A stretch of 64,000 nt of DNA from Cymodocea nodosa (lineage: Eukaryota > Streptophyta > Magnoliopsida > Alismatales > Cymodoceaceae). The position numbers and the translations under genes were made by a program. The stretch's first letter is position 1; the number at the start of each line of letters is the position of its first letter. The stretch covers positions 16,762,501 to 16,826,500 of the forward strand of contig CM072338.1 in the NCBI GenBank assembly GCA_036874045.1, in the 5' to 3' direction. The notes beneath the pieces were generated by a model. It was given only the letters and a program-made list of their open reading frames with translations. It ran no database searches and was not told the DNA's origin. Below, in pieces: positions 23,198 through 61,959 of the stretch.

Positions 23198-26082
23198 TCA
23201 GATGTTCCCATGGGAGCTTAGTTTCGATTCAAGCTCGTCGGCATGAGCAACAAGGTAATTGAAAGCTGAAACGACATCTGCAATGAGCGGCCGCATGTTT
23301 GGTTGGTCTTGCACGCACATTCCAGAAATTGCAAGTGCTTGGTACATCCCCTTTGAAGGAAACTTGCCCTGAAGGACAGGATCAGCGATCTCCCGAAGTC
23401 TCCTCCTGTCCCTGATAAAGGGACGAGCCTACATATCAGTGATGAATAACATAAGATCAATTTGCAAAAAAAAGAAAAAAGTTAACCAGGAAAACCACAC
23501 GGATTCCTCTTATGTATGGAAGTTGGGCTGAGAAGAAATCAGGAAATTGGACAAACGATAATATTACAAGAGTATGCTTTCAATATATTCCTTCATTAGT
23601 TACCTCATCTGATGAAATTAATGCAAAAACAGTATAATCATAGACAATTAAATTAATGAAAAAAAGGTCTCATTATACCCTTTTGAATAAAAACAAAAAA
23701 AATGCACAAAAAAGAAGGAACATCTGATGTTGGAAGTGAAGATGAAAAATGACCACATTTCTATCATATCTACGAACTTTGACAGAATCGCTTACCCATG
23801 CCACCAGATTACGCTCAGAGGCTGGTCTATCATTGTCAATAGCCCTTCTTCCAGTGAGAATTTCCAGAAGAACAACCCCCAAGCTATAAACATCCGACTT
23901 TGTTGTCAACTTCCCTGTCATTGCATACTCGGGGGCACAATATCCATATGTGCCCATCACCCTTGTAGAAACATGGGACTTATCTCCAACAGGACCAAGT
24001 TTTGCTAATCCAAAATCAGATAACTTTGGGTGGAAACCCTCTCCAAGCAAAATGTTGGAGCATTTCATATCACGGTATATGACGGGAGGACTGGATGTGT
24101 TATGTAAATACTCCAGACCTTTTGCTGCACCAACTGCGATCTTCATTCTTGTCACCCAGTCAAGTGGCTTCCTTTTAGAACGAAGATCTGCGGCAAAAAA
24201 CTGTAAGGGTGAATATAACAATCCAAACAAATTATTATATAAATTATATTTGTACAATATCAATGCGAATAAAACATGGAGATGAAACTTACCGAATAGA
24301 TGATCCTCTAGAGATCCTAATGGCATGTACTCGTACACCAGAAGCCGTTGATCCCCATCCAAGCAGCATCCAATAAGATTTACAAGGTTGGGATGGTGAA
24401 GCAGATTTAACATCAAGACTTCAACAAGAAATTCCCTGTGCCCTTGAAGTCCATCGAGATTGAGCTGCTTTATGGCCACAACCTATGTCAAGCATAAGAT
24501 GTAATTAATATGCCAACAATCTAACAGCAAGTCAGCAAGTGGTAAAGAACAACAGCGTAAGATGTGAACTCTTAGATGCTGAAGTTTTGAAATGCTATGT
24601 AAGCAACCACGCTAGGTGAAAATGAAAAAGGTTGAAAACAAAATAAATTGTTGAAGTTAATATGAGACCTATTACGCTCAACTGATACTTGCATACACGA
24701 CTTCTGATTCAAGCACTGGTTAACCGAACAAATAAAATCAAATATTTTCAAAAGTGGTAGATGCTTTTATTTGAATGAGAGCACAAACAAGAATGTTTAA
24801 ATTAAATAAAATTATTCCAGATAATCCTCTAATTATTAAAATTGATTGATAAGATAAAAGGAATATATCAGCGGTTGCACGTATGGCAATATACATGAAC
24901 CTGAGATGCTTGAAAATACCTTCCTGTCTTGTACGCACGGAGGATTATTATCAATTATGCCCCTGGTTTCAGGAGAAGCGGAGAACTACCATTGCTAAAT
25001 TAGCCTTGGAACATATGAGAGAGAGAGAGTGTGTGTGTGTATGTGTGAAGCAAACCTTGTCTATACATGCCAATCTGCCTTTATAAACTCGACCAAATCC
25101 ACCCTCACCCAAGAAGCAATTTGTTCTAAAATTATTAGTTGCAGCAGCCAAATCACTGTATGAAAAGATTTGAGCTTCATCTGGATCATTTCTTCCCAGC
25201 CTGCAGCTTCTATCCCCAGACAAAGAACTAGCTTCGGTCCTCACATCTAACAAGAGCTTCATATCAATTCCATGACCATACAGAAAAGTAAAATCAAATT
25301 AAACGAAATGCACAAAACAGTTCTAACTGTGAGTAGATTCCATTTACGTCGCAATCATGGAGGTACATACATCGACAAATATAAGAAACATTAAACAGCA
25401 ATGATGCACAAGAAGGCATGCATAAATTACAACTTCCCACAGTAATATTGATTACTAAATAGAACCCTACCAAATAAAATATATATGGTGATATGGTTTT
25501 GATCCTACCAAATACAAAGTCTTCCCCAGGATCTCTCAGCTGCAAGCTCAAATCCAACTTTGAAAATACAGAAGAAAAGAAATATGCCAAACAAGAACTT
25601 TCTTCACCCAACCATCCAGCCATGTTACAGAAGCAAAAGTAACCATTCCGGACGAGAATTTAAAAAGAGAATTTCGGACAACCAGCTTCTTCCAAAGCCC
25701 AGAAAACTAATTAAGATACCACACACTGAGAAATGGCCTGTCTAGTAAGCTCAAATCCAGAAAACTATCCAAACTGGCATATATTCAAACACCTAAAGAA
25801 CGAAATTTTCAAACAAAGAGCCATAATCCAAACTTTACAACTAAAACACGATCCGAAAGTTCTTCAATCTAAACCAATTATCAAAACAACGAAGACAATT
25901 ACAACAATAAACTCGTCCTTTTCTTACAAAGAATGCCATCGATGCCAATGCGATGGGGAGAGTGGAGAACATCAGAATTTGAACCGGGGGGGGTTGGATC
26001 AAATACCTATCGGAATCAGTTCCGGGAGGCTCCTCCTCTTGTCCTGTTTGCCGGAGACTCCGGTGCAGAGGAACCACGCCAT
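23198..26082 (-). CDS. Receptor-like cytoplasmic kinase, RLCK-VII (PBL7/CDL1 type)
   Basis: RLCK-VII kinases relay signals from plasma-membrane receptor kinases. Five exons on the minus strand join in phase: 26082-26007, 25246-25056, 24482-24293, 24187-23796 and 23428-23198, giving 359 residues. The kinase domain has the glycine loop [12 protein letters not shown] (about 71-82), VVAIKQ with Lys94, [10 protein letters not shown] (catalytic Asp192), SDFGLAK (Asp210) and [10 protein letters not shown]. All key residues are intact. [10 protein letters not shown] and [14 protein letters not shown] are typical of RLCK-VII, and [20 protein letters not shown] matches the CDL1/PBL7 branch. The N-terminus is [12 protein letters not shown], where relatives that are lipid-anchored have Gly at position 2; here it is Ala, so N-myristoylation is not expected, although Cys6 could still be acylated. 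The start is supported by correct splicing to exon 2. Confidence 0.92.
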
Positions 26083-26893: not shown

Positions 26894-29800
26894 TTAGGAA
26901 ACAGAATGTCTTCTGTGCCTGGAAAATCCTACAAGTCGAGCTTCTCCCATGTTCAAAGGAGCAGAAGGTGGACTCTGGGAACTTGTGGAGGTCTCGGAGC
27001 TCTTGTTGCTGTGTGACTTTCCAGACAAAAACTTGTCAAACATTCTTATAGACCGGGATGGCAACAAGAACCTGCTACCACCTCCTTTGTTCTTGTGCGT
27101 GTGATTCTTCTTCTCCTTCCCTACGAAACCATCGTCAGCCCCGGCAGACTCGAGGTGCATCTTCAAGGACTTGCAATCTCCTTTCACATTTGCAGTAAGA
27201 CGACGACCGGTTTTGCGTGTGATATCAGTTGTTTGAACATGTCTGCCTTCAACGGCGGCCGCCCTTGCCTGCTCAAAGTAGAGGACCTGAACAACAACGC
27301 GGAGTGGGAGGCATTCATTCTGGGCAGCATGTGCACACGCCTCTGCGGAGAGCTTCTTGACATCAAATAGGCCACAGATTTTCTTCTTCTCTGCTTTTGT
27401 CAAACTAGGATGCCTCTGAGACATTCATAAAACAATGGAATTGAGAGCTCAAGTGGGAGGCTATTGGTTAGTTCGGAATTTTGCAGAAATTGGATACGAT
27501 TTTAGATTCAAAAAAGAACTTAGAAGGAGAGAATAAAGCATAATCAAAGACATACATCGCAATTACCAAGGGGTTTAATGTCATAAAAAAAGGAATAACA
27601 ATAACATGAAGCAGCATGCACTTGTAATGTAAAAAGCATGCTCTGAATTACCATGAATTTCATATGATTCACAGATCACAACATTGAAAATTCCGATGGT
27701 GTCATGCTAGATTGATGTATCGTTACTTTTTGGAATGCCATCATCAACCACTACTTCATTTGAAGGCATTTATTAGGGGATAATACTAGAGCTAAGCAAC
27801 ATGGTGATTGGCATTCCATGCTTTCTAGCATCAAATACTTTCCACGTGCTATTTACAGTAATTTTGTGTTGAAAATTGTCTGTTCAGCTGTGTTATTTAC
27901 ATGCTACCTGTGAAAATCCAACTCAGGGGGTCGAAAATACACGTAATATACAGAATCTTAGATCCAAAAACCACCTACTGTTTATAGTGGTTGAATGAAG
28001 GAAAGGAGTCTCAGTTGAGTTGCATTAAATATTTGTTGATTGAAGTAACAAATTTATATGATGATATATTTGTTCAAAAAGCATATCTTAACATGGTTTA
28101 TGATTCCATATTATACACTTTTATTGAAAGATTGAGCAATTTGATAACTGTGAATTTCTCTTACATGGTGATTGAATAACCTTACAGTATATTGATTGAA
28201 GTAGCAAACTTATATGTGAATGTACATGTTCAAGTATGGTCTGCACATGGCTAATTATGCACTCTTTTAAAAATTATTTAGCAATTAAACAAGCATGAAC
28301 TTCTCTTAATACTATGAAGCAAAACAGTTTCTGGAAGTCATGGAGGCAGATTTTCTAGAGGAGGCCATGGTTGAAAAAAAAGAGAGAGAAGCTGCTTCAT
28401 TGGAGCATAGCGAGTTCCACCACAAACTGCAAGAGCTGGAGCAGTGGTAATATAAAAAGCAGTAAAGCAAAGAATATAACTAGGTAATGCCATAATTGAT
28501 TTAGTGGATGATGTCTAATTTTTCCCCATCTTTCAGATAACATATAATGTGATTGAATAATAATCTGGCAAATACGGTATCATAGATTATTCCCCTAGGA
28601 TCATGATTCAAGGAATTGAAGACATGAAGAAATTGAATTGAAGATACACTACCTTCAGATAGATATCAATGGCTGAGTATAACTCATCATGAACAGGTCG
28701 GGCAGCTTGAGGTAATGACTGTGAGAGGTCAATGAAGCTAGATAATGGAAGATTCGCATCACAGGCTATTTCAGCAAGATAGGCATCAATCAACTTTCCA
28801 ACTGCTAATAAAGATGTATTTGCTACAGAACATCTATTGCTCATATTTTCACCCTTCTTAATATACTCAGAAGTGTCACCATGCACCATAAATCTCTTGA
28901 CAAGTTCATGAACCAGATGCACATCATAGTTAGTGTTGCTAGTGGACTTTGATGGAATAAGAAGATCCTTAATGGAAGCTTCGTCCAGCTGTAGACTTAT
29001 TTGATTTAGAAGCATTTCTTGTGATGGGCCCTCAATCTCGATCAACTTAGCAACTCTCAATAGCTTTAGCAAGAAACTACATGAACAACCTGAACTCTTA
29101 TTAGATGGCAAAAGCGAAATAATAGTTTCAACAAGAGACCTATTCCTTCTCACATACTTGTCAGAAACTATTCCATCAAAAGAAATTGGCAACCATTTGA
29201 CTGCATAACTTCTTAGAGCCTCTCCTATTATATCTGCTGCCATCCTGCCTTTTCCCTTCACAGCAACCAACACCTTCTTGTAGAGATCAACATCCAGGCC
29301 ACATATGTCCTCAATCCACCAATTCCTGGGAACAGAAGACTGCATCTTTTGATCAAATCTTCTTGTTTGATTGACAAATTGATCAGCCAATGCCATATTT
29401 TTGGAATATGAATATGACCAGCTTACATCAGAAGGCTCCACCAATATTTTGGATGCAACAGCGTCAATGCATCTCCCAGTTATCTTTAGATCCTCAGGCC
29501 AGGGTAAGAAAAAATTGGTAGTCTGTAGAACAATAATAGAATCTTTCCAACTGCGGAATACAGTGGATGTCAGGAAAACATCAATTTTGTATATCAAATT
29601 TCCTTTTTCAATGTCCTCAGACATCTCAAGGTATTCCGCAGCACACCTAGCCACAACAACATTACGAGCATTCATCATAACAATCATGCCATAGCAGAAC
29701 TTTGCACACAACTCAAAAGCTGTTGATCCTCCAGGAATGTCATCAAGATGCACTTCATCAATATTTTCCTTTTGAGCTCTGAATAACAAATTACGCAGTA

Positions 29801-38540: not shown

Positions 38541-38920
38541 ATGTGTAAAAACATGCAAGACTCGCGACCAGGCACGGTTGCGTTCGCCTACTGGGGTTGG
38601 TCAGATCGACAAGCACCTGGTAGCAATTATGACCGACCAGGTATAACACAATTTACACATTTCTTCACTTTCATGGGGGGTAAAGATCGGATCCAAGGAA
38701 TGGTTGGAGAGAGAGCCTTCGCGTGCGAATCTGGCGGCAGCAACCGCATCATCTTTTCGACCAGATCAAAAGGCAAAAAGAATAAGAATTCTCTTTTACT
38801 TTTGCCACCTTTTTCCCAGCCTTTCCTTCGTGGAGTCTCGATGTGCGGGTAGTGGCCCAGCACGTGCCCTACACGCGCCCCGCACGCCACGAGAAAAGGA
38901 GAGAGAGAGGAAAGGAAAAG

Positions 38921-38957
38921 CGCCAACGCCAACGCCAACGCCAACGCCAACGCCAAC
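38921..38957 (+). repeat. Hexanucleotide microsatellite (CGCCAA)6
   Basis: Six tandem copies of CGCCAA lie about 155-190 bases upstream of the ATG of the ABCC13-like gene, next to a short GA-rich stretch. It is probably in the promoter or 5' UTR. The Ala-Leu and Gly-Val frames over it are artefacts. Confidence 0.9.
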
Positions 38958-39110
38958 CGCTCCACTCTCTCCGTACAAACACTACCCTCGTTGTGACGCT
39001 TTAATTACGGAGGCCACCCCTTTCGTCGGTACGCACACTCCACAATCCATTCCACTACGAAGTTCGAACTGCGTCTCGTCCTCCGCGCTCCGCCTCATCT
39101 TCGGCCTCGG

Positions 39111-42100
39111 ATGGATTTTATCTGCCCTAACTCTCCTCCGGTTTCAATCCAACCTCTGAGTTTCTTGTGTTGATCGCTCTCGTTCTTCTTCTTCCGCAGG
39201 ATTCCGATGATCATTGTAGTGTCATTGACAGTTTCCGTTCTTTTTCCTTGCATGTCTGTGTAGGTATGGGACGGGTCTCGCTTGTCGGCTTGTTTCGAGA
39301 ACATATATCCTTCCTCCGTGCATTACGTGTTGCTTTAAAATTTCGTTGCGGAGATATGTGCTGAATCTTTTCGTTCATGGACTTTCTCTCATTTTTTTGA
39401 ATGCTCGAGACCTTAACGATGTGGTTCACGGTATTGGGATTTGGTGCCAATTCGGTGACGATAGTGATGATCATCGTGCTTGGACTCAAAATGAAGAGTT
39501 CCGGAGGAACCTGGGTATGTGGTCCTACGCAGAGTTATGTCGATGATGATGTAGGTGTTTACTCTATTCTGTGGCTATGTGTGGTCGTTAAAGATCGTAG
39601 AAAATAAAGGAGGGGTGAAACGGCCGACGGGGTTTCACCCTTCCAGCGATGAATGACTGGATTTACTCCGGTGGAGTTAACGACCTTAATGGTTGGAAAG
39701 GAAACGGTCGACAAGAAACTTTTGGAGGGGTGGTAAAGGTTTCTTTATAAATAAAGAGGAAGGTAATGGAGTTGTATATTAACATTGAAAAAATACCTAG
39801 TTTTCTCTTGCTCACTATATGTCAGAGCTTCAAATCTGTCGTTGGTTTCTCTTCTTAACCTACATTGGTATCAGAGTTTTTGTTTTTCATTGTCGAGTTT
39901 TGTTGGTCATGTGTACACATTGTTTCTCTTCACATGCTCCATTCCTCTCTTCTTTGCATGCACAAACCATCGTTCAATCATGTGTGGATCACTTGTCGTC
40001 TACTACTCCTTTGTTTTGCACTTTTTACATGCCCTAATTAGACACATTCTAACTCACCGCCCCTTTTTGCACGACTCACCACTTCTACTCAACTAGTCTT
40101 ACATGTTTCCACCTCTTTTGTAGTTTCACTCGTCTACTTGTTGCTCCATTGCCTAAGCTTGCAACTCATCAACTTGCTTATGCACAATCTTCATCAAGCC
40201 TATCGACTTGTGCACTTGTATGATTGTCACCACTTTGAGCCTTGTCGATTCACTTGAGCTCACCTTCGCCATCCTCTACGTTCTTGCGATCCTTAGCCAC
40301 TGCTCGATTTGTTCTCACTTTGGTGGAGAATTGATATTATGACTATTAAACTATTCACAATTGAAATGACTAAGATTGAAAAGTTGAATGAGATAAATTA
40401 TAAGATGTGGTATCAAAAAATTAGACATGTACTGAAATATCATAATATTAAACATGTTATTGAATTAAATCCTTTGAAAGTAGAAATTGACGCGTTTGAA
40501 GTGAAAATTAAAAATGTTGAAAAATGGAAGATAAAGGACAAAAGGGTTAAGAACCTCATGTTTATGTTTATGAAGGATGATTTAATAAAATGTTTTGAAA
40601 ACTACACTACTAACATTCACATTATAGAATTCTTTGAAGGAGAAGTATGATAAAATAATAGAAACGATGACTTAATTTTTTTTTCAAAAATATAACTCTT
40701 GTAAAATGTAAGTAGAACAAAATATAGTGGAACATATTAATAATATGGTAGTAATGATCAAAGACTTAGCTATTACAAGAATCTTTATACCTGAAAAATT
40801 ACAGATAACAACTATATTGAATAGTTTGTTTAAAAGTTATGATATGGTAATCACATCTCTTAGATTTACCTTGATTCAACTTTTTAAACTATCAACTAAG
40901 TTGGATACTGAATAGGAAATTATTGCTAGCCAAAGGAAATATGAAATCAATTTAGAAGAAATGAATGCCATATTTTAGAAGCCAAAATATGACAGAAATA
41001 ATAAAAGGAAGAATATATTTAACAAAACCAGCTATAAACTAAATTAAGCTTGAGAAAAGAAAGCATGAAGATCTTACCATACTTATGGTCAATTTGGTTA
41101 CTTTAGGGTAAATTGTCCTAATAAGGACAAAAACAAAAGTGGACTCACAAAACAAAAAGGAAAGAATAAAAGAGTCTTTTTTGAAATTGTCGAATATAAT
41201 AATGTTGTGATTTCAAATTCAAATGATTGGTGGATAGATTCTAGTGTCACTAGACATATTGCTAAAACCAAAAAGGATAGGAATCATTTAAAGAATATAG
41301 TCTTAGGAAACAATGCATCTACATGAGTAATGACACCTATCTAGATGTGGAAGGTATTGACACTTATCGTTTGAATTTGGGAGACAATATTATAGTCTCA
41401 AAAGATGTCATCTAGACACTTGGAATGAGGTGTAATTTGATATCAGTCGACACTCTCATGAAAAATGGTTTGGAAGTTCATTTTTACAATAAGCGTGTAT
41501 CCATAAGCAAAGAGAAAAATGTCTTTGTTATGGGAAATTATGTACCTGAGCATGATTTGTTCAAGATTGTTGTGTTTGATAATGAAATAAATGATATAGC
41601 TTTTGGTTATTCCTTGTGTCACCTGTTGGAATGTGAATTATGACATTTGAGATTAGTTCATGTTAATATACATAAAATGAAACAAATGGTGAAAATGAAT
41701 TTGTTACCTCATTTTAATAAGTATCAACATTATTTAATTGGAAAAATAACTAAGAAATCCTTTGGAAAAAGACAGATTAGATGAATTTTTAGGTTTAATT
41801 CATTCTAATGTATGTGGTCTACTTAGTATTAAAACATATAATTATAAGGAATATTTTGTAACTTTTATAGACGATTTTCTAGATATACTTATGTTTATTT
41901 AATAAATCATAAGAATGAAGTATTGATTTGTTTTGAGAAATACAAGTTAGAAGTAGAAAAACAACTTAGAAGGAAAATTAAGGTGTTAATGTTAGTTAGA
42001 GGTGAGAAATATAATTCAAAAGAATTTAAACTGTATTATAAAATATATGAAATAATAAGACAAACTATAATGTGTTATACATCATAATAAAATGATGTGA

Positions 42101-45100
42101 CTAAAAGAAAAAACAAAACTTTAGTGAATTCTGTTAGATATATGCTTTCACATTCAAGTCTCTTCAAAAGTTAAAGGAGATGTTTTGTTTACAAAAAATC
42201 ATATATTTAATAAAATATTCATCAAATCCGTGTCAAATACGCCTTATGAGTTGTGGATCGGAATAAAACCCAATTTACATTATTTAAGAAAATGAGGCTC
42301 TATAACCTATGTACTTATTTTTGAATAGTTGATGAATAAGTTGGAATCTAGAATAGTAAAATGTAAGTTTATAGGCTATTGTAAAAATTCTTTTGGATAT
42401 AGGTTTTATAAAAAAAAAAAGAATTATTGAATATGGGGATGCTATTTTTCTAGAAAGCTTAAATGAAAAGGAGCAAAATGAAATAGAAAATGAACCACTA
42501 TTTATAGTAGATGGTGACTATTTCAATAATATTCTAAAAAATAACTTTATAATTGAAGGAGAACAAAATAATGAGAATACAAATGATCCTATGGAAATTG
42601 CAAATGAAAATATAAATGAACCCATGAAAATTGTGGGAGAAAACCATAATAAGCCTATAAATGGAAATGATGAAACTAAGAAGAATTGGTAGTGTCTGTT
42701 GGTAACAAAAGAATAAGATATCAGTCAACATGAATGAATGATTATCATTTGTATTCTTGTGAATTTTCCTATTTATTAGTTGATATAGAGGAAAATCACA
42801 TAAAACTTGTAATATATAAAGATGTTATTGAATTTCAAGAAAAGGATCTATGACTTAACATTATGGATGATAAGATAGATTCCATTAAAAGGAATCAAGT
42901 ATGAGAATTGTGTAATTTATTTGAAGGAAAGAAATTTATAAGATGCAAATAGATATTATGGAAAAAGTTAAAGACTAATAGGTCTATTGATAAATATAAG
43001 GTTTGATTAGTTGCTAAATGTTATACACAAAAGTTGAGAATTGATTTTCAAGAAACTTATTCTTGGATAGCTAGGTTTTCTTCGATAAGAATAATATTAG
43101 CTATTGTTGTATATTTAGATTTGGAATTACATTAAATAGACGTAAAGATTGTATTTCAAAATAATGATTTGCAAGAAGAGATTTACATATCATAGTTTGA
43201 AAGTTTTTAGGTGAAAGCACATAAAAGAAAAGCATACAAATTAAATAGATCAATATATGATTTGAAACAAGCCTCAAGACAATTATACAGAAAGTTTCAC
43301 AATGTACTTATCATAATGAGATTTGTTTCAAACAAGTCAAATTGTTGTATATATATTAGGAAAGGTGAGAGCAGGTTTGCGATATTGTCTCTGTATGTAG
43401 TGATATCTTGCTTGCTGGAAATGACCTTGATATATTGGTTAAAACAAAGGAAGAACTTAGTTAAAAATTTGAGATGAAGGATATAAGGGGAACATCCTAT
43501 ATTTTTGGAATTTAGATCCTTAGAGATCAAAAATCTAAGATATTGGGTATAAGTCAGGAAATATACTTATGTATGATATTAGAAAGGTTTAGAATAGACA
43601 ATTGTTCTTTAGCCCCTACACAATTTGTTTATGGGAAAATGTTAAGTAAAGATCAATGTATTAGAAAGGGAAATGAATCTTTAAGAGTAGCTTATGTTCA
43701 AGTGGTTAGAAGTTTGATGTATGCTATGTTGTCTATTAGATTAAATCTGATATATGTGGTAAGTCTTGTAAGTAGGTATTAAAATAATCTTAGAATAAAA
43801 CATTGAGAAGTTGTCAAAAGAATAATGAAATATATAAAAGGAACTTTGCATCATAAGTTAACATATCAAGTGGAAGAGCTTGAAGTGTTTGATTATTTTG
43901 ATGCAGATTTTGGTGGTGACAAAAATGATAGAAAGTTTACATCGAGATATTATTTATCTTTAGAGGTGCAACTTTATCTTAAGGTAATAAAAAATAAGGA
44001 TGTGTAGCAAAATATACACAGAAAGTTGAATATATTACTTATAGTTCAGATGCATCGCATGCTATTTAGATTAGAAGATTTATAAATGATTTAAATCTCA
44101 ACTTAATAAATAGTTCAATAAAAATGTATTGTGATAATCAAGTGACAATTAGTCTTATACATAGTAATACAAATAATTCAAAAGGATAATATATTAATAT
44201 ACATTATCACTATATTCGTGATATTGTAGAAAAAAGAGAAATAAAATTGAGTTATATTCCCACGAAAGATATGATTGTTGATCTTTTGACAAAAAGAATT
44301 TTAGTAAAAAGTTTTATTAAGTTTGTAAACTTAATGAGGTTAAGGAACATTTCCATTGATAAAAATGGAGAACATTCTCATGTGGTAAGAATGAAAGAAT
44401 CATACACTTCACGAATAGTAGGAGTGGAAGCAAAACATCTCATTGCATGAAATTTTATGTGCGGTCTTCATGACCAAGTGAGAGATATGGGTATGTGTGG
44501 TCATTAAAGACCATAGAAAATAAAGAAAGGGGTGAAATGGTCAACGGTTTCACCCTCCTAGCAATGAATGACTGGATTTACTCTGGTGGAGTTAATGGCC
44601 TTAATGGTCAGAAAAAAAAAACTGATGGGAAGTCATTGGAGGAGGGGTGGTGAAAGTTTCCCTATAAATAGAGAGGAAGGTAATGAAGTTGTACATCAAC
44701 ATTGAAAAAATACCTAGCCTTTTTCTACTCACCACATGTTGAAGCCTCAAATCTGTTGCTGGTTTCTCTTCTCAACCTACATGTTCTATTACATTGCTAC
44801 TCTTGTTCATATACTCGCTATGTTGTTTATACATCACACGAGATGTGGATATGTTTATGAGTGTGATGGAAAAGAGAAAACAATATGCAGTGGAATTTGG
44901 AAGTGGATGTACTGCCATGTTGAACTCTTGCTCGATGGGGAAGTGAGTGGAATGAATCTTTTATATCAAGTTGTATGTTTTTGGTGCCTTCAGAATAGCA
45001 CACTTTACTTTTATAACTCAGTTCAAGTCATTAATTGGAATAAGCAAGGATAGTGAGCCCATTATCATTAATGCAGAAGTTAAGCAGCAATTCCGAGAAT

Positions 45101-48100
45101 AACAGTGTTATGGATAAGCTTTTGGAAAAGTCTTGTGATTTTTTTTTAGTTACATAACATTTCTAAGTAATGAACCTTGGAATAAACATGATTCATAATT
45201 CTGAATGGTGGTCGTGATTGTCTCCAGTTAACATTATTTTATTACTGTAAGAACTATATGTAATTTCAGATTCTAAGTTTGTTCTAGGTTAAAATGATGT
45301 ACTACTTGAATACCACTACAGTCATTTTTTGAATATTTTTCAAGTTATACTTGATAAAAGAGGACAGTCTATCCTTTTGTCTGATGGCTTCAATAAATAA
45401 AATTGATCCTGTGTATATATCCTATCCATTTCCCCCTTAAATTCAATTTTGAATATCAATAATTTGAAATATATTTAATTAGGAATCATTCTTGGAATAT
45501 ATAGCATTTGTGCTAAATTACCAGGTCACATGGATTAAAGATTGGTTGCCATGAACAAAATCTAGGGCTATTTATTTTTTAATGGACACTTTGTAATGGA
45601 TTTCTTTTAGCTTTGTCTTATTTTGCAGTTTTTAGTCTATGTTCACTACAACTTTTTTCAGGGTAGTAGGAGTCATTTTCTGGCAAAGGTGTTTTTGTCA
45701 TTTGTTCCTGCTCTTGGAGCATGTGCATGCTTTTGCAATATACTTTTGCTTCTGAATGGCAAAATTCAGGGACACATTAGTCACTATCACGAGTGGCTGC
45801 TGGTTTGTTCTCAATTTCTTTTATGGGTATGCCTTCTGTTTTTTCACAAGCAATGGATGACTTATTATATCTGAATGTGTTGTGATCTTCACTTTGGTTC
45901 TAATGATGCTTTAGATGATAGTTGTGCTCTTCCTGAAATGTGATTGTTCGCTGCTCATATTCTGCAATCCAATTCTTTGCATTTGGTGGATAATCAAAGT
46001 TCTCTTTGAGGTTTTCCACTTGTGGACTGTATTTTCTTCATTGAAGGTTAGTTGTTTGACTGAATATAGTCTAATATGTGAAATTGAAGTTCATTAGGTC
46101 TAAATGAATGAATGTGATCATTTACTGGAATTGATTGTTGGATTTTTGTTTATTAACAAAAATCATATATTTTTTGGATAATTGTTGATTGAGAAAACAA
46201 ATTGCTTTATTGTTGATTGATTTGATTAAATTTGCTGAGTTGTTGATCATTCATATCCTAAATCAATTTATAATTTGAGCAAATTATTGAATTTAGATTC
46301 TTATCTGGAATGCTGATTTATTTTCTTAATGTAGATGGAAGTTTTTAACTTCAAATTAGCAGAAATTTGATGTGTGGTGGCTGTTGTTAATTAGGTTCTA
46401 TATTTGACAATTTTTGATTAGCAAAATCCTCTCTAGTTGGAAATCAAGTTTGAATTGTGGGTTTGTCGATCAGATGTCTAGCGTGGATGTCCATACTTCC
46501 TTTTGGAGGCATGCGTGTAGAGGATGTCCTGTGTGGACATCTAGTAAAGCTCTTTGAATGATCTGCAAGAGGAGTGGATGTCCAGTGTGGACGTCTGGTT
46601 CAGTTTCTTGAGTCATCTGCCACTAGAGTGGACATCCTGTGTGGATGTCTGGTACAGGTGCAGTTGGTCCTCTTGTCTTGGGTGGATGTCAACATGGGAT
46701 GATTATCCGTTCCTGAATGTTAGTGGGCAGTTTCTGATTATTGTAGTTTCCATTCTGGGATGATTGTGCATTGTATTTAGTGTGTGCCTTGGATTATGGG
46801 AGAACATGCCAAGCAAATTGTGCTCCTATTCTCTTGTGATTTTGTTCTCTCTATCAAAGTATGAAGAAGTTTATATGCTTGATTCATGTGTTTGTGCTAA
46901 AGTTTGAAATTGTGCTGTGGAAGATCGTGTGAAGAAAGTTTTGTGTGCTTGGTGTAAAGGCATATGACAGATATTGCTCTTGTCTAGCCATATGACAGAT
47001 CTAACATGTCATGAATATTGAAGAAATAATGAATAACGAGATGACTATTACCCTTGAAGCAATTCAACATCAAATTGAGATAGTTTTTATAAGGTCAATG
47101 CATTATGAATTATTTTTCTACAATTATTGTTTACTTTCAAGGTTTATTCTTTTTTTTTTTTTTTTTTGAAATAGTCCTCAATCTATATATGGGGTGGGGG
47201 CCCATCAAAGCCAAGTACAAAGCAAAAACAAGATCAGCTACATGAGACAACAAAACAAAAGCTTAACACAATCTACTTGTGAGAATTGCCCATCTATCTC
47301 AGATGTTATGTCCTCTCTTATCTCCTTGGGAAGGTCCTTAAAGTGTTCAAACTTGTGGTATCCTTTGGTGGAAACCCCTTCTTTAGCCACCAGGTTGGCC
47401 ACCTTGTTTGCTTCCCGGTATGCATGCTTAAAGGAGGATACTTGATCCATATATTTGACTAGAGGGTACCAAAAATCTGTTATGGAGCTAGTTGGACATC
47501 TTCTCTCCTTAATGGCCTCATATGGCACTTTTGAGTCAATTTTCACTTTTGAGATCAAACCTCCTCTCAATACAAAGTTGCAGCCCCTCAAAAAGAGCTT
47601 TTGCTTCAGCATAGATAGGGCCTAAATCCTCCAAAACATTATAGAAGGCCACCACCATTTTGCCCCAATTGTTCCTTAAGATCCCTCCACCAACTGTACC
47701 CTTATAGTCAGTCGCTTCATCTGTATTTAATTTCAACTTTCCCTCACCTGGGTGGTCACATCATATCCATTCCATCATTTGATTTCGAGATATTATTGGC
47801 ATTTCAGAAATGTTGAAAGCTTGGCTCCGTTCCTCTAAAATTCACTTACTTTCCACTGGATTCTAGAAAAAGGATTATTCTATTCATGTAAATGCTAAAT
47901 TTGAATGTATGTAACATTTTAATTATGGTAATTGCACAGAAATTCAATCTAAACAATTTTATGTGTTAATTATAAATTTTTTTATCTTGTCCTAGAGTTC
48001 CAAGTCAAAACTTGAGATTTTCTACCAAAATTTGATGTTTTTGTGCTTTTACACCATTGTCATTGAAATTTCCATTGATACTCAATGGCTATTTTTTCCT

Positions 48101-51100: not shown

Positions 51101-54100
51101 TAATATATAAAATAGTGTGTAGTTTATGGTAATATACCTAAGGATCACCTACTTATTATATTGTATATATGTAAACTGTCATTTGTACATGACTCAAGTT
51201 AATGCAAAAGGGGGGATCAGGGATACTTCCAATTTGGTATCAAAGCCGTACAATTCCACCCCCCATCCTCTCTAGTTTCCAATCATTAGTTGTCTTATCT
51301 GTCATTTGTCTAATGGTTAAAGCTCATTCGACACAACCGCTCATTTGGCTGACAATAGGAGCTTCATTCAACAGCTATCCATTTGTTCGACAGTCAAAGG
51401 GTTCATTTGATGTTGTTGCTTGCTCTGTTAGTCATCTCGTGAACGTGTGCACGCTTGTTTTGTCAATTGTAGCTCATTTTCTTACTGCAGATTTCCAATC
51501 ATCAGTCTTGCGAGTTTGTGCCCATCAAGGATAGAGAAGGATCATGTGTCTAGTCTAAGACTATGCATCTTGTTGTCTGCAAGTTCATCTTACCGGTTTT
51601 GCCTAGTTGTGTTCGTCAATAGGCCCTTTTCTCCAAGTGGTGTGTGTTTGTCCACCACTTGTGTTGCTTTTCTTTAAGTGGGGTGTGACCCTTTTCTCCA
51701 TTGCTAAAATTCTCTTTCTCAGACAATGACTTCATGAGATTTGTTCAATAAGAACATCCCTGGAATCACAGAGAAGCTTAATAGACTAAACTATCTTTTA
51801 TGAGCTCAAAGCTTTGAGACTATCAAGGGTTACTGTTGAGAAAATCATTTGTACAATCAAGCGTTAATACCTACAATGATTAGAAGGTAGACAATACAAT
51901 CATTGTCTCTTGGATGCTCTCAAATATGAGCCAACCATTGTACGAGGAGTGACCATGTTATGCCCTACCAATTGAATTTGGGAAAATCTACAAAAAACCT
52001 ATGGTCATGATAAAAATATCTTAAAGTTTTTTTAAGTATATGAGCAAATTTTCGGCTTGAATTAAGGTGACCAAACATGTTAGCAACATTACAGTGTCCT
52101 TTGTGGCTTACTTGATGAACTCAATTGTTATTAGCCTCTAATTATAGATTTGGCCACATTTTACTAGTATCATGAGGAATTTGTCGTGACCAGTGATTTG
52201 GCTAGTATTAATCCAGAGATTGTATCCCAAATCTGTGGATCTATTCTCAGTGTTAAGTCAATGTTTGATTTAGATGAGACTTTCGCTCGAGCCTTACATG
52301 TCTCTACATCTCATTTAGCAATTTCATTGGCCAACAATCTACTCTCGTAGCTTTAAGAAGTAAGGGAAATGATTGCTTAGGACATGAAGGTAATCGATAA
52401 CATCCAAAATGCTAGTGGTGCAATAGATTTGACCACAGATTAAAGAAATATTATGACAAGTGGGGAAAACCCCTAATGATGGCTAACATTATCACCAAGT
52501 CTGATGCTCTCACTATTGTTGTTGCTTCAAGAGAATCCATAGTTACCATCTCACAAATAGATTGTGATCGTCTCCTTCGGTCTTAGAGATTAGACTTAAG
52601 TGCCATGAGCGTCCATGCCTCCTCTTATCACTTAGGTACTAATACTAGCATTACCCTTATCGCCTCTAGTGTTGATCCCTAAGTAGTTGACTTTAAAGCC
52701 TCTTCACACATATTAGGTACTTTACTTCTTTTTGATCGATTATCTCATCTTCCTAACCAATCCACTGTAACTATTGTAGATGACCGGTCCTATTCTATAT
52801 CTAGTAAGGGGGAGGTCTAGGTCTTCTCTTAGATGTGATTAAATAATGTCCTATATGTTTCTGATCTCTTTTTTAATCTTTTATCTATTAATGTTATTAT
52901 CGAACAATTATCTTGTTCTTTAACTTTTTTTTCCTTTTCATTATATCTTTTAAGACTTGCAAATGGGTTGGAGGATTGATTTGGGACATAAGTGTAGCAA
53001 TAATGTCTACATTTTGGCTTGTAATCACATTCTTCAGGGTTTGGTTGCCTACATGACGAGCACTGAATCTTCCATCCCTTGACACTACTGCTTAAGTCAT
53101 CCTTCTTAGGACAAGCTTTGTCAAATTCTTTAGTGGACTTTTGTGTTACCATTTCAGTATGAGTCGTATCAGCTTGGGAAGTACACTTGTACTACCTTGA
53201 AGCAGTTAAGTCTGTCGTTGACCTCAAATTTATTCAATTTACTTCATTGTGATATTTGAGGTTCTAGTTATGTCAAGTCTATTGGTGGCCATCACTATTA
53301 TATAAATCATCTTTTAGGTGTGTCTGCTTAAAAATCATCATACTATTGTTGATGTATTTCAAACTTTTTTGGCTATTAAAAACCAATTTGATGTTTGTCT
53401 TAAAATTTTGCATATAAATAATGCATTAGAGTTTGTGTAGTCTGAATTTTAGGTCCTTTTCTCCTCACATGGTATTATACATTAGACCATGTGTCCTCAT
53501 ACTTCCGCGTAGAATGAAGTTGTGGAGCACAAACATTGCTATATTCTTGATGTTGCTCATACTCTTATGATGCATGATCATATTCCTAAATCTTTTTGTT
53601 TTGATGTCATTCTTACTGTTATCTACTTTATCAACAAGATGACCTTTTCCCCCTTGGGTGGTGCTATTCCCTTTAGTTGCCTCTACTCGAAGCAGGAATT
53701 GTTCTCTTTATCTTCCAAGGTCTTCAAATATGTTATATTTGTTCAAGATCTTTCTTCTAGTCGTGACAAACTCTTTTCCTGTGCCTTCAAGTGTATGTTT
53801 GTTGGGTATTCTCGTTCTCAAAAAGGATATTACCTCTATCATCCCTCTACTTGCAAATACTACACCTTCATGGATGTCACTTGTTTTGAGTCTCGGTCCT
53901 ACTATCTTGACACTAGTCTCACCTCTAGTGAAGGTCTTGACACTCTTGTCTCTTGCCCTCTTTTTACTACTAGTGAACCAAGTGTTATGTCAAAGGACCT
54001 TCTAGTGTCGCATGCCACCCTTGCAGGTTTACACTCAACAATCGCGACACACTTTAAATGTCCTATCTCAATCCTCTGACTTTGATTGCAATGTCCATTA

Positions 54101-57100
54101 CACTTCCCTACCTGATGATTGCCTCATTATCCTTTGTAAAGGCACCTGTACTTGCACCTAACACCCTTTATTTGATGTATTTTCCTATGCTAACATTGAT
54201 TCCACCTTTTGTAGTTTTGCCTTATCCCTTATCTACAAAGTCAATTTCCACGGATCATCATCAAACTCTTTAAATCCCTCATTAGAAGACAACTATGGAT
54301 GAGGAGATGGAGGTACTCCATTCTCATGGCACTTGGGATCTAGTCTCTTTCCCTAATGATGTAAATGTGACCTCCTGCCAATGGGTTTTCACCATCAAAC
54401 GCCATCTTGATGGCTCCATTGATAAATATAAAGCTTGTTTGGTGGCTCGCAATTTTTCTCGAGAGTATAGGATTGACTACTTAGAAACTTCTTCTCTAGT
54501 TTTACAACTTGACTCTATTCATGTTCTCTTATCTTTTTCTGTTAGTCACTCTTGGTCAATTTACCAACTTGATGTCAAAAATGTCTTCTTATATGAAGAC
54601 CTAAAAGAATAGGTGTTCATGAAACAACTTCTAGATCATATTGCTTAGGGGGAGTTATGCGTATGTAGATTGAACAAAACACTCTATGATCTTAAACAAA
54701 GTCCTAAGGCTTGGTTTACCAAGTTTAGCAATGTTATGAGGAGTGCTGGATTTGAAAACTACCATGTTGATTATTCTATATTTATCAAGAAGACCTCTCG
54801 AGGTATTGTTATTGTTACAGTTTACGTTAATGATATGCTATTCATCGATAATGATCGATAATGTATTGATGATATAAAAAGGTTCTTGAATCAGTATTTT
54901 GTCTCAAAGGATTTAAACACTTTTTGATACTTCTTAGAAGTTGAATTTACCTACTCAAATGGGCAACTATCTCTTTTACAGTGGAAATATGTACTAGACA
55001 TGTTGAAAGAAACTAACTTTAAGGGATGCAAACTAGAGACAACTTTCATAGAGCAAAATCATTCCTTTCATGATGATACATCTCTACTTTTTAAAGACTC
55101 AGGGAGATATAGGCATATGGTAGGCAAACTTATATATCTAATTGTTACAAGACTAGATATTACATTTATTGTAAACCTCCTAAGTTAGTTCATGCATACA
55201 CCAAGAGTTGTCTATTGACAATGGGTTATCAAAGTTTTAGCTTACATAAAGAAGTCTCTTGACAAAAGGTTTCTCTACAAAAAGTATGGTCACTTATGAG
55301 TAGAAACCTACTTAGATGTAGGGTATGTAGAAGATAGAGTTGATAGAAAATCTACCTCAAACTACTATACCTATTTGAGAGGAAACCTAATGACCCGATG
55401 CAGCAAGAAGTAAAATGTTGTGTCAAAGTCAAGTGCAATGGTAGAGTATTAGACTATGTCTCAAGCTACTTTCGAGATGATCTAGCTAAAGACCTTACTT
55501 CCTAAATTAGGAGTGGAAGTTCAAACTCCCATGCCAATGTATTGTGATAATTAGACCATCATCTACATTGTTAGCAATTCTACTTTCCATAAGAGAACAA
55601 AGCACATTGAAGTTGATTGTCCCTTTATTAGAGATAATGTGTTAAAAAAGGTCATTTCAACTCCTTTCACCTGTTTCACAAATCATCTTGCAGATGCCTT
55701 CACCAAAGGCCTTGAAAATGAAAACATTAATGTTTATGAGCAAACTATGTATATTTGATATATATGTTCCAATTTGAGGAAGAGTGTAAAATAGTGTATA
55801 GTTTGTAGTAATACACCTTAGTATCACCTACTTGTTATAGTGGTCCATTGTTACTGTATATTGTCATTTGTACATGACTCAAGTTAATGTAAAAAAGGGG
55901 ATTAGAGATTCTTCCAAGTTAATAAAAATTCTATATACAATCAATATCAATGCTAAGAAAATTACTCAATTTGATTTAGGAATCCTTGAAAATATTAAAA
56001 TTAAAAAAAGGAAAATTATAAAATTGAGATTTATAAAAAATAAAAATAAACAAAATAATGTTATATCTAACCTAAGAAAGTAAGATTTTATCAGAATGAG
56101 ACTTGATTTTGAGAAATATGAAAAATACATACCTTGAAACATCACAAAAGTTGTTGGATTGCCTTCAAGTCCCCAAAAGACTGGAGCATGATTTCAGTGT
56201 AGAATGGCAAGTTTGTAGGGAGTCGTAGGAAACCTAGGAGAAGATTACACTATCTGAGGCAAATGAAGAAAGTGCACCTGTCTCCACTGATATATCTCGT
56301 GTATCAAGTGATACACATGAAAACAATTTGAAATGCACTGTTTTCACTGGTACACTGATATCTGTCCGTACAATATGCCAGTTAAAATGTGTTTTATAAA
56401 TTGATGTATTCTATGTACTGGTATTTCAAATTTCCAAAATGCATCAGTGAAGATTTGCCGATACATTTTGATATGGTATTCTATGTAGAGGTCATGGTAG
56501 TTGCATGATTGACAAGAAGTATCATCACTGTTGATGACTGTTGCTATTTAAGAGGTTAGAACCAAGTAATGCTGTGACCATTGGAAGTGCCAAACAGGTT
56601 TGGCTTGTGGCAGTATGGAGGGATTACTAGGAGCAGTTCCATGTTGCTGTGAGAAACTTGTTGCTTGGTTAATGCATTCTCAAAACTGGATAACGATGTG
56701 CCATAATGGAGATGCGGATCTCTTGTGTGCAACGAGCTTGAAGCTAGACTGATGAGTCAATGATGCAAACTGATATCAGATCATCAATTGAAATTTGTTA
56801 TTCTGTTGTAGCAACTAGCAAGACTATCAATGTCAGAATTCAAGTATCATTCGATTCAATAGACACCTTTTTTGAAGTTGGTGAAACTGAATATAAGCTG
56901 TATAACATAAGCTTAATTTGTTGTGGACAGTTAACCGTGATATCCAAAGCTTCCCAAGATGGCTGTGCAAGTTAATTCTGATGAATTGAAGCATGATAGA
57001 ATCATCAATGATGTGATGAACTGGTGCTCCACCCGGGAACAAGTAAAACACTAAAGAAATGCTGTCAGATTCACGAAATTGTTATCAGATGTTTCAAAGC

Positions 57101-59091: not shown

Positions 59092-60598
59092 GGGGGGGTT
59101 TGTGCACTCGGAATCTGACGGAATTGAAAATATTTTCCGTCAGATTCTGAGTTAGTGGTGTTTGTGCATTTTGGAATTCAAATTCCTTGGGAATTTGAAT
59201 TCCAAACATTAACAAAAGTTGGGAAAATGAATTCCGACCTAAAAGGTCGGAATTCATTTTCCGACATTCGGCCCCTCGCATCCCGCTCGTCGTCCTCGCC
59301 CGCACGGTCGTCGTCTCGCTCGTCGCCCTCGCCTGTGTGCTCGTCGTCTGGCTCGTCGCCCTCGCCTGCGTCATCGTTGTCTCGCTCGTCGCCCTCGCCT
59401 GCGTGCTTGTCGACTCGCTCGTCGCCCTCGCCCGCGCGCTCGTCGTCTCGCTCGTCGCCCTCGCCTGCGTGTGTCGTGTCACTCGTCGCCCTCGCCTGCG
59501 TGCTCGTCGTCCTTGCCTGCGTGCTCGTCGTCCTCGCCTGCGTGCTCGTCGTCCTCTCCCGTCGCCCTCGCCTGCGCCCTCGTCGTCTCACTTGTTGCCC
59601 TCGCTTGCGTGTGTCGTCTCGCTCGTCGCCCTCGCCTGCGTGCTCGTTGTCTCGCTCGTCGCCCTCGCCCGCACGCTCGTCGGCCCCTTGTCGATTCCCC
59701 CTCGCGCTCGTCGGCACCAACACTTTCGAGTATCGAAAGTCTCTATTTCTCCTGAACGAACGCAGGTATGTGGTATCGCAGATTTGCGTTGATTTGAGAA
59801 ATTTGTTATGAGGTATGTGTATCAGGCCTTGATTTGAGAAATTTGTTGATTCAACATTTTATTTTGTTTTGGTATGCAATGATCTAGTTTTACATTGATG
59901 TGTTGGAGTGTTGGGTTCGACTCAATTTCATTCCAGTAACCATGAACATTTCGAGATATTTGCTAGGTATATGTTGATTTACTTAGTTAAGCATAATATC
60001 TTTTGTAATTTGTTTTCCAAAAGAAGAATATCTATGGATTATGCGTGTGAGATCATCACATCAGGAATACTACTAGATTATGTAGTTGGTATCAATGAAA
60101 TAAACCAGCCTTATCAATCAGAAAGTTAAAGTGCTTATAAATTTTTTGTAATATGCCTTTTTTTTGATCATTACGAGGAATATAAAATTTATAATTATCC
60201 TTTTGTTGTTTTAAATATGTAATATAACGGGAAAGTTATCAATTTCTGTTATGTTCTGATTTATTTTATATAATGATATATTTAATTAATTGATAAATGA
60301 TATATAAACATTTATTTTAATAATATATTCATTTATTAATGTCAACAATTCATTAATAAATTAATTACATTTTCACTAATTATTTTAAGTCAATACTTAA
60401 TTTTATTAAAAATCAATTTTATTCAATTCCCTCCAATTCTGTCACGTGCACAAACACCTGGAATTCAATTTCCGTCAAATTCCTGAACGTGCACAGACAC
60501 CCAGATTTTGAATTATTTCCGTCAAATTCTGCAGAATTCAAATTCCGTTAGAATTCAAATTCTGCGGAATTCAAATTTCAAGTGCACAAGGGGAGGGG
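59092..60598. mobile_element. Nested DNA element with hairpin-rich end and minisatellite
   Basis: It interrupts the gypsy gag. The termini TTTGTGCACTCGGAATCTGA (59099) and, inverted, CTTGTGCACTTGAAATTTGA (60590) match at 16 of 20 positions. GTGCACA sequences recur near the right end. The left end holds three inverted repeats: 13-bp arms at 59111-59123/59135-59147, 16-bp arms at 59171-59186/59190-59205, and 19-bp arms at 59222-59240/59244-59262. A GC-rich minisatellite follows, then AT-rich DNA. No transposase is visible. Flanking TTA and TTT may be a decayed target duplication, suggesting a Harbinger-type or foldback element. Confidence 0.6.
59270..59700 (+). repeat. GC-rich minisatellite, 33-bp unit
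   Basis: About eleven imperfect copies of a 33-bp unit (GTCGTCTCGCTCGTCGCCCT, then CGCCTGCGTGCTC), with some 21-bp short units around 59508-59570. The unit length is divisible by three, so all frames stay open and give Arg/Ser/Pro-rich or AGEGDERDDEH-repeated peptides. I regard these as by-products of the repeat, not genes. Confidence 0.92.
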
Positions 60599-61959
60599 AG
60601 TTTTCCGAAGCCCTAATAGCCAGATTCGGAGAAGATCTCTTGAGAGATTATGAAGGCAATTTGTACAAGTTATAGCACACTAGTCACTAGCGGAATACTT
60701 TAATGAGTTTAATGCCCTTTTGATTAGGGTTTCGGGCATGTCAGAGGCCATCTGTGTGAAATGTTTCATTGGAGGGCTTACCAAGGATCTATAGGTTGAA
60801 GTTAAATATCTCAGACTGACAACAATGGTGATGGCAATTTCTCTTTCGAAAATGCAAGAGGCATGGGAACTTGCTTGACATAAAAAATTGGGGACTCTAG
60901 GGGGTGGAAGTATGAGGATGTCATTCCCACTGATACATAGAAATAACAGTATCAATCGAGCTCAAGGGGAAACTGGAAGGCTAGAATAGGGTTTGACTCT
61001 ATCTAGACATCGAAGGATAGCAGGGAGCAGTCATCAAGAATGCACAAATTCACCAAATTAACCCTAGCAGAAGAGTAAAGATAAAGGGAGAAAGGATTGT
61101 GTTTCTGCTGCAATGGAAAATACCAACTAGGACACATATGCAAGGCTAAACAATTATGTTTAATTGAGGGACCATTTTCTGATGATGAAAGGAGGAAATA
61201 GTTAAAGCTACAAGTGGAGAGGACATCAAACAGGAAGAGGAGGAATTGAAGGAATAACCCAAAATTTCTACGCATGCATTGACTAGAGGAGCATCTGGAC
61301 ACCATCAGGTTGCTAGAGAAATGCGTGGGAAGGCAGGTAATCGCAGCAACCAAAAACTCGCACCCAGATACCATGGCCCCTTCAAAGTCTTGGGAAGGAT
61401 TGGCACAGTTGCGTACTACCTAAAGTTACCACAGGGTTCTAGGATCCATCCAATCTTTCATATCTTACAGTTACACTGTAAACTGGGCCCAATTGACAAC
61501 TTAATGCTGCCCTTAATATCTATTCTTGCTCTTCCTCATTCTAAGCAATGAAAGAAACTGTTAGCATGCTAGATGAAAAAGAAGAATAATGCTGCTGTTA
61601 CAGAAGTATTAGTGCAATGGCAAGCAGATGGAGAAGAGGTTGCTATGTGGGAAGAGCATTCAAAGCTTCTGGTCAACTTTTCAGACCTTGAGGACAAGGT
61701 CTATAAGAGTGGAGGGAGATATTGTTATGTGCTTATCATATTGTAGTTGGGTAATTGGATTTGTTAGTTATTATATAAACATCTTAAGGATGGTGTTAGG
61801 GTTGAAACCTTTATGCATTTGAGTTGAACTCATTGGAGAGGGGTTGACTCTTGAATTTCAGCCGACTGCTATTTTCTACTATCAACCATAAATTGATATT
61901 CATCCAGAAGTCCATATAACTTGTGTTCTTGTTGGTGCAAGGGTTTATCTAACACTTGT

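Follow-up and report, generated by a model that had tools for sequence, protein, structure and literature searches.

Gene model and neighbouring features

The Cymodocea nodosa genome searched comprised 374.6 Mb in 28 contigs. The stretch of 64,000 nt analysed here (G000:C6:16762501-16826500, hereafter the window) carries on its plus strand the first five modelled exons of a gene that begins with an ATG at 39111 (Table 1). These exons join into 151 codons with 0 stops. Intron 4 is a GT-AG intron of phase 0, with an acceptor ending at 45914. Translation of the model demonstrated that stop codons appear if intron 2 is retained, and that the frame shifts away from VLGFGAN, the peptide following intron 2, if exon 2 is skipped. 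The 151-aa N-terminus gave four matches in its own genome: exons 3, 4 and 5 once each, and one on another contig (E 0.535) that was set aside. No second copy of the gene was detected with this 151-aa query, in a kind of search that misses exons as short as 1 and 2.

A short run of CCAACG repeats lies just 5' of the gene (38922-38958), perhaps in its 5' UTR or promoter. Intron 3 may harbour retroelement sequences, as its open frames have that look when judged by eye. Matches to other protein families were located on both strands of the window, those 3' of exon 5 being of the transposable-element kind (Table 1). The NPH3 family among them is not known outside plants, and its presence agrees with a plant genome.

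Table 1. Features of the window. Positions are those of the window; coordinates of the domain matches (last column: domain) were converted from residue numbers.
Feature	Position	Strand	Description
Protein kinase	23820..24482	-	domain
NPH3 family	28653..29324	-	domain
CCAACG repeats	38922..38958		short run, just 5' of the gene
Exon 1, coding part	39111..39140	+	MDFICPNSPP, phase 0 end; start codon and boundary placed from the reading frame
Intron 1	39141..39263	+	GT-AG, 123 nt, phase 0; model
Exon 2	39264..39304	+	VWDGSRLSACFEN plus AT of the split Met codon
Intron 2	39305..39429	+	probable U12-type AT-AC, 125 nt, phase 2
U12-type 5' splice site	39305..39312	+	ATATCCTT, exact consensus match
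U12-type branch site	39410..39417	+	ACCTTAAC, 7/8 against TCCTTAAC; branch A 39416
Exon 3	39430..39514	+	(G)VLGFGANSVTIVMIIVLGLKMKSSGGTW; recovered in genome search
Intron 3	39515..45661	+	GT-AG, 6147 nt, phase 0
Exon 4	45662..45826	+	model; recovered in genome search
Exon 5	45915..46046	+	model; recovered in genome search; donor scored
Copia-type Pol_BBD, SH3 and reverse transcriptase	52686..55047	+	3' of exon 5; domain
Repetitive open frame	59128..59808	+	long, with many RSSPSPARSSS-like units; apparent tandem repeat
Tf2-1-like SH3	61339..61476	+	3' of exon 5, other element; domain

The gene as an ABCC transporter

On the same strand beyond the window, pieces of an ABC transmembrane stretch (TMD1) matched ABCC chains in the PDB; against PF00664 they reached 18.4 bits, below the cut-off of 28. 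The NBD1 motifs GSGKSS and LSGGQ were located by pattern only, at 145.4 and 145.9 kb on the scale of the window. NBD2, at 153.2-154.4 kb on the same scale, scored 81 bits against PF00005, and its best PDB match was ABCC2 (194 bits). The sequence supports the assignment of the gene to the ABCC (MRP) transporters, because the modelled exons are followed by ABC transmembrane pieces and by a pair of nucleotide-binding domains, of which the second is closest to ABCC proteins in the PDB. From the start codon to the last recognised piece it spans about 115 kb (39111 to about 154,600 on the window's scale; loci L009-L013 and L020-L024), which is large for a plant gene, and Copia-type and other transposable-element domains lie between its exons.

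The original prediction of an ABCC13-like transporter is upheld by these transmembrane and nucleotide-binding domain matches as far as the ABCC family is concerned, while the name ABCC13 itself is putative. The gene is probably the orthologue of Arabidopsis ABCC13 (At2g07680), and its expected N-terminal segment is presumably that of ABCC13. The ABCC architecture is common to the gene and to Arabidopsis ABCC13/MRP11 (At2g07680), and their N-terminal segments are presumably alike. In the PDB, chains of 9vrb and 9vrc bear the name 'ABC transporter C family member 13'. With both query pieces they ranked eighth and ninth, below seven ABCC2 sequences, so their name was not taken as evidence for an ABCC13 identity; plants may differ in which ABCC gene bears the number 13. 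The 151-aa N-terminus had no PDB match at E up to 10, and no relative of it was found in genome_contigs (43 pattern stretches, 0 confirmed) or in viral_contigs (4 stretches, 0 confirmed). In Hevea, HbABCC13 is listed as the counterpart of At2g07680 with the figure 66, which we read as percent identity (PMC4304824).

Splice signals of intron 2

The donor of intron 2 at 39305 had been predicted to equal the minor-spliceosome consensus, and it does so exactly (Table 1). The predicted branch motif CCTTAAC is likewise present (39411-39417), and the longer ACCTTAAC deviates from TCCTTAAC at a single position, its first base. The last base of the intron, the C of the terminal AC, is 39429, which lies 13 nt past branch A 39416 as predicted; in U12-type introns this distance is usually about 10-16 nt. 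Pyrimidines make up 50% of the 20 nt before this AC, against 65-75% before the acceptors at 39263, 45661 and 45914, and a weak pyrimidine tract is expected at U12-type 3' ends. Joining 39304 to 39430 gave CFEN-M-VLGFGAN, with the Met codon split AT/G (phase 2), and so confirmed that FENMVLGFGAN is read in phase. Intron 2 combines a 5' splice site and a branch site of the U12 type with the spacing of such introns, the lack of a long pyrimidine tract and an in-frame AC. The AT-AC 5' splice site published in PMC2831892 is ATATCCTT, and the branch site published there is TCCTTAAC.

Alternative splices between exons 2 and 3

Holding exon 1 and the beginning of exon 2 constant, we listed all GT-AG, GC-AG and AT-AC introns of more than 60 nt that connect exons 2 and 3 in frame. 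Nine introns kept the frame: six AT-AC, one GC-AG (39288-39409) and two GT-AG (39318-39409 and 39327-39409). Three of the AT-AC options start from the ATATCCTT donor and three from the AT at 39266; of these six, 39305-39429 alone carries a suitably spaced pair of U12 signals. The claim that only this splice restores the expected protein holds if the presumed orthologue is accepted; as a statement about the reading frame it does not stand, since nine introns keep it, two of them GT-AG introns with very weak donors.

A U2-type GT-AG intron at either of these positions, or the GC-AG intron, might therefore link the two exons. All three keep the reading frame, and their common acceptor at 39409 is preceded by 70% pyrimidine, like the U2-type acceptors of the gene. 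The GT-AG versions would give CFENIYPSS(VHY)TLTMWFTVLGFG, 12 or 15 residues longer, and the GC-AG version a changed segment, so that the presumed ABCC13 N-terminus would be disrupted. However, the two GT-AG donors, TCC/GTGCAT and TAC/GTGTTG, scored -1.66 and -0.03 compared to 3.31, 6.95, 5.92 and 9.37 for introns 1, 3, 4 and 5 (scores from an approximate matrix of round figures, to be read as relative only), and they rank 2926th and 2260th among the 3377 GT on the plus strand of the window. The lowest of the gene's own scores belongs to intron 1, whose donor is unusual and weak (CCG/GTTTCAATC at 39141-39149). All three rivals would moreover reduce the U12 signals to a coincidence of about 0.002 per interval, and we consider it highly improbable that any of them links the exons.

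The gene might also be a decaying pseudogene in which the motifs no longer matter, a reading compatible with a formerly working U12 intron. The length of the gene, about 115 kb, and the transposable elements between its exons fit such decay, but the first five exons hold 151 codons without a stop, the motifs of NBD1 and NBD2 are present, and the NBD2 pieces match a PDB protein of the ABCC family at 194 bits. Decay is accordingly very unlikely.

Least probable of all, and hardly to be credited, is a translation start at the ATG at 39419 with noncoding exons 1 and 2 and no AT-AC intron: this ATG does exist, as predicted, in frame with VLGFGAN, and would read MWFTVLGFG, but MDFICPNSPPVWDGSRLSACFEN, the translation of exons 1 and 2, continues in frame into exon 3, in agreement with the presumed start of ABCC13, and the U12 signals would be left without explanation.

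Frequency of the motifs

The arrangement scored consisted of an exact ATATCCTT, a TCCTTRAC beginning no more than 500 nt away and allowed one mismatch, and an AC 9-19 nt after the branch A. It was found once in the window, both strands counted, and this single occurrence is intron 2. Order-2 simulations trained on the window produced 24 such arrangements per 4 Mb of one strand (0.0024 per 404-nt interval; about 0.8 per window, both strands), and those trained on positions 38600-40600 produced 19 (0.0019 per interval; about 0.6 per window).

Genome-wide, the motif pairs were not enriched compared to a reversed-pattern control (31 vs. 51 at gaps of 60-90, a range that excludes intron 2 itself with its gap of 98). 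A strict pattern (exact ATATCCTT, TTCCTTRAC and AC, gap 50-80) was not enriched either (4 vs. 3, the four rows being three distinct places). Eight of the 31 places were retrieved as loci, and the flanks were inspected in six of them (L001-L004, L007 and L008, leaving out L005 and L006); none of the six was recognised as having coding flanks. All three places of the strict pattern were inspected, and two had no recognised coding flanks. Motif statistics were consequently rejected as proof of a U12 intron, the pairs being no commoner than those of the reversed control. As the motifs are expected 0.6-0.8 times per window by chance and show no enrichment over the control, it is the position between coding exons, together with the phase, that carries the case for intron 2.

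A second AT-AC intron in the genome

One further locus of the same genome (L037, minus strand, around locus positions 1501-1583) contains an AT-AC intron of the U12 type, 81 nt long and of phase 0. It has an exact ATATCCTT donor, a TTCCTTAAC branch site and an AC 12 nt past the branch A. Its flanks are coding: the upstream stretch ends in CIATWA and the downstream stretch begins with TFQLKRVEPPG. With an E limit of 1, four distinct PDB sequences matched the joined protein; the best (E 1.8e-11) belongs to the endonuclease/exonuclease/phosphatase family, and the two PDB alignments examined had no gap at the junction. The separate pieces had no Pfam match at E up to 0.1. The junction alignments therefore indicate that coding genes of C. 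nodosa do contain AT-AC introns of this type. Intron 2 and the L037 intron are alike in the exact ATATCCTT donor, the AC end and the position between coding stretches, but the L037 intron differs in its phase (0 instead of 2), in its gene and in its length (81 instead of 125 nt).

Components of the minor spliceosome

The genome search returned a U12 snRNA gene (91 bits) and a U6atac snRNA gene (88 bits), both above the Rfam cut-off. The U11-48K zinc finger (PF05253) was matched at 34 bits, above the Pfam cut-off; one of the 14 control genomes, that of an archaeon, also matched. U4atac had no match in the genome search, nor in the control genomes, and the window itself yielded no Rfam match. 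The U12, U6atac and U11-48K matches point to a minor spliceosome in C. nodosa. Pairing is possible between the GTAAGGA of the U12 gene and CCTTA(A)C, with an adenosine bulged out, and between the AAAGGAGA of the U6atac gene and the TCCTT of the donor.

Discussion

Positions 39305-39429 very probably form a genuine U12-type AT-AC intron, the second intron of a plant ABCC (MRP) gene that is probably the ABCC13 orthologue. We favour the U12-type reading because of the splice signals, their spacing, the phase, the absence of a convincing GT-AG alternative, the U12 and U6atac genes of the same genome, and the L037 intron. We infer that intron 2 is spliced as AT-AC, in the following way. The AUAUCCUU of the pre-mRNA would be recognised by U11 and then by U6atac, while U12 would bind its CCUUAAC. 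Adenosine 39416, bulged out, would attack the 5' splice site, the AC 13 nt downstream of this adenosine would serve as the 3' splice site, and the join from 39304 to 39430 would yield the N-terminal segment MDFICPNSPPVWDGSRLSACFENMVLGFGAN. The order of recognition and the chemistry of splicing are established knowledge.

Intron 2 agrees with the U12-type AT-AC introns of plants in its 5' splice site, branch site, spacing and terminal dinucleotides, and the sole difference is the one branch-site mismatch. According to PMC7367187, the AT-AC share of the U12-type introns is 23% for Glycine, 26% for Arabidopsis, 22% for rice and 13% for maize, and U12 introns are biased against phase 0, a bias that is significant for Arabidopsis and not significant for soybean, rice and maize; the phase 2 of intron 2 fits this bias. 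Its position near the start of the gene fits the concentration of U12 introns in the 5' part of genes described in PMC2426677. In one count (PMC5716242), the representative transcripts of Arabidopsis contain 81 AT-AC pairs, and PMC6310983 puts AT-AC pairs at about 0.06% of annotated plant splice sites. Intron 2 is very probably an ordinary member of a class already catalogued in plants (PMC7367187 and PMC5716242).

Among the papers searched, none was found that names a U12 intron in ABCC13; the intron may already be catalogued in supplements or U12 intron databases. The string VLGFGAN was absent from the literature searched, and 'ABC' was not found in PMC4892727.

The use of the finding lies mainly in annotation. 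Non-canonical splice sites are described as difficult for ab initio prediction in PMC5716242, and a predictor limited to GT-AG introns would probably lose exons 1 and 2 of this gene or start it at 39419. A more far-reaching reading is unlikely: that intron 2 is an old, conserved control point at which slow minor splicing sets the amount of the transporter, so that, with stop codons appearing directly after exon 2 on retention, the activity of the minor spliceosome would gate the transporter across the flowering plants. If the intron is conserved, this gene is to be counted with the minor-intron genes for which the minor spliceosome could control output.
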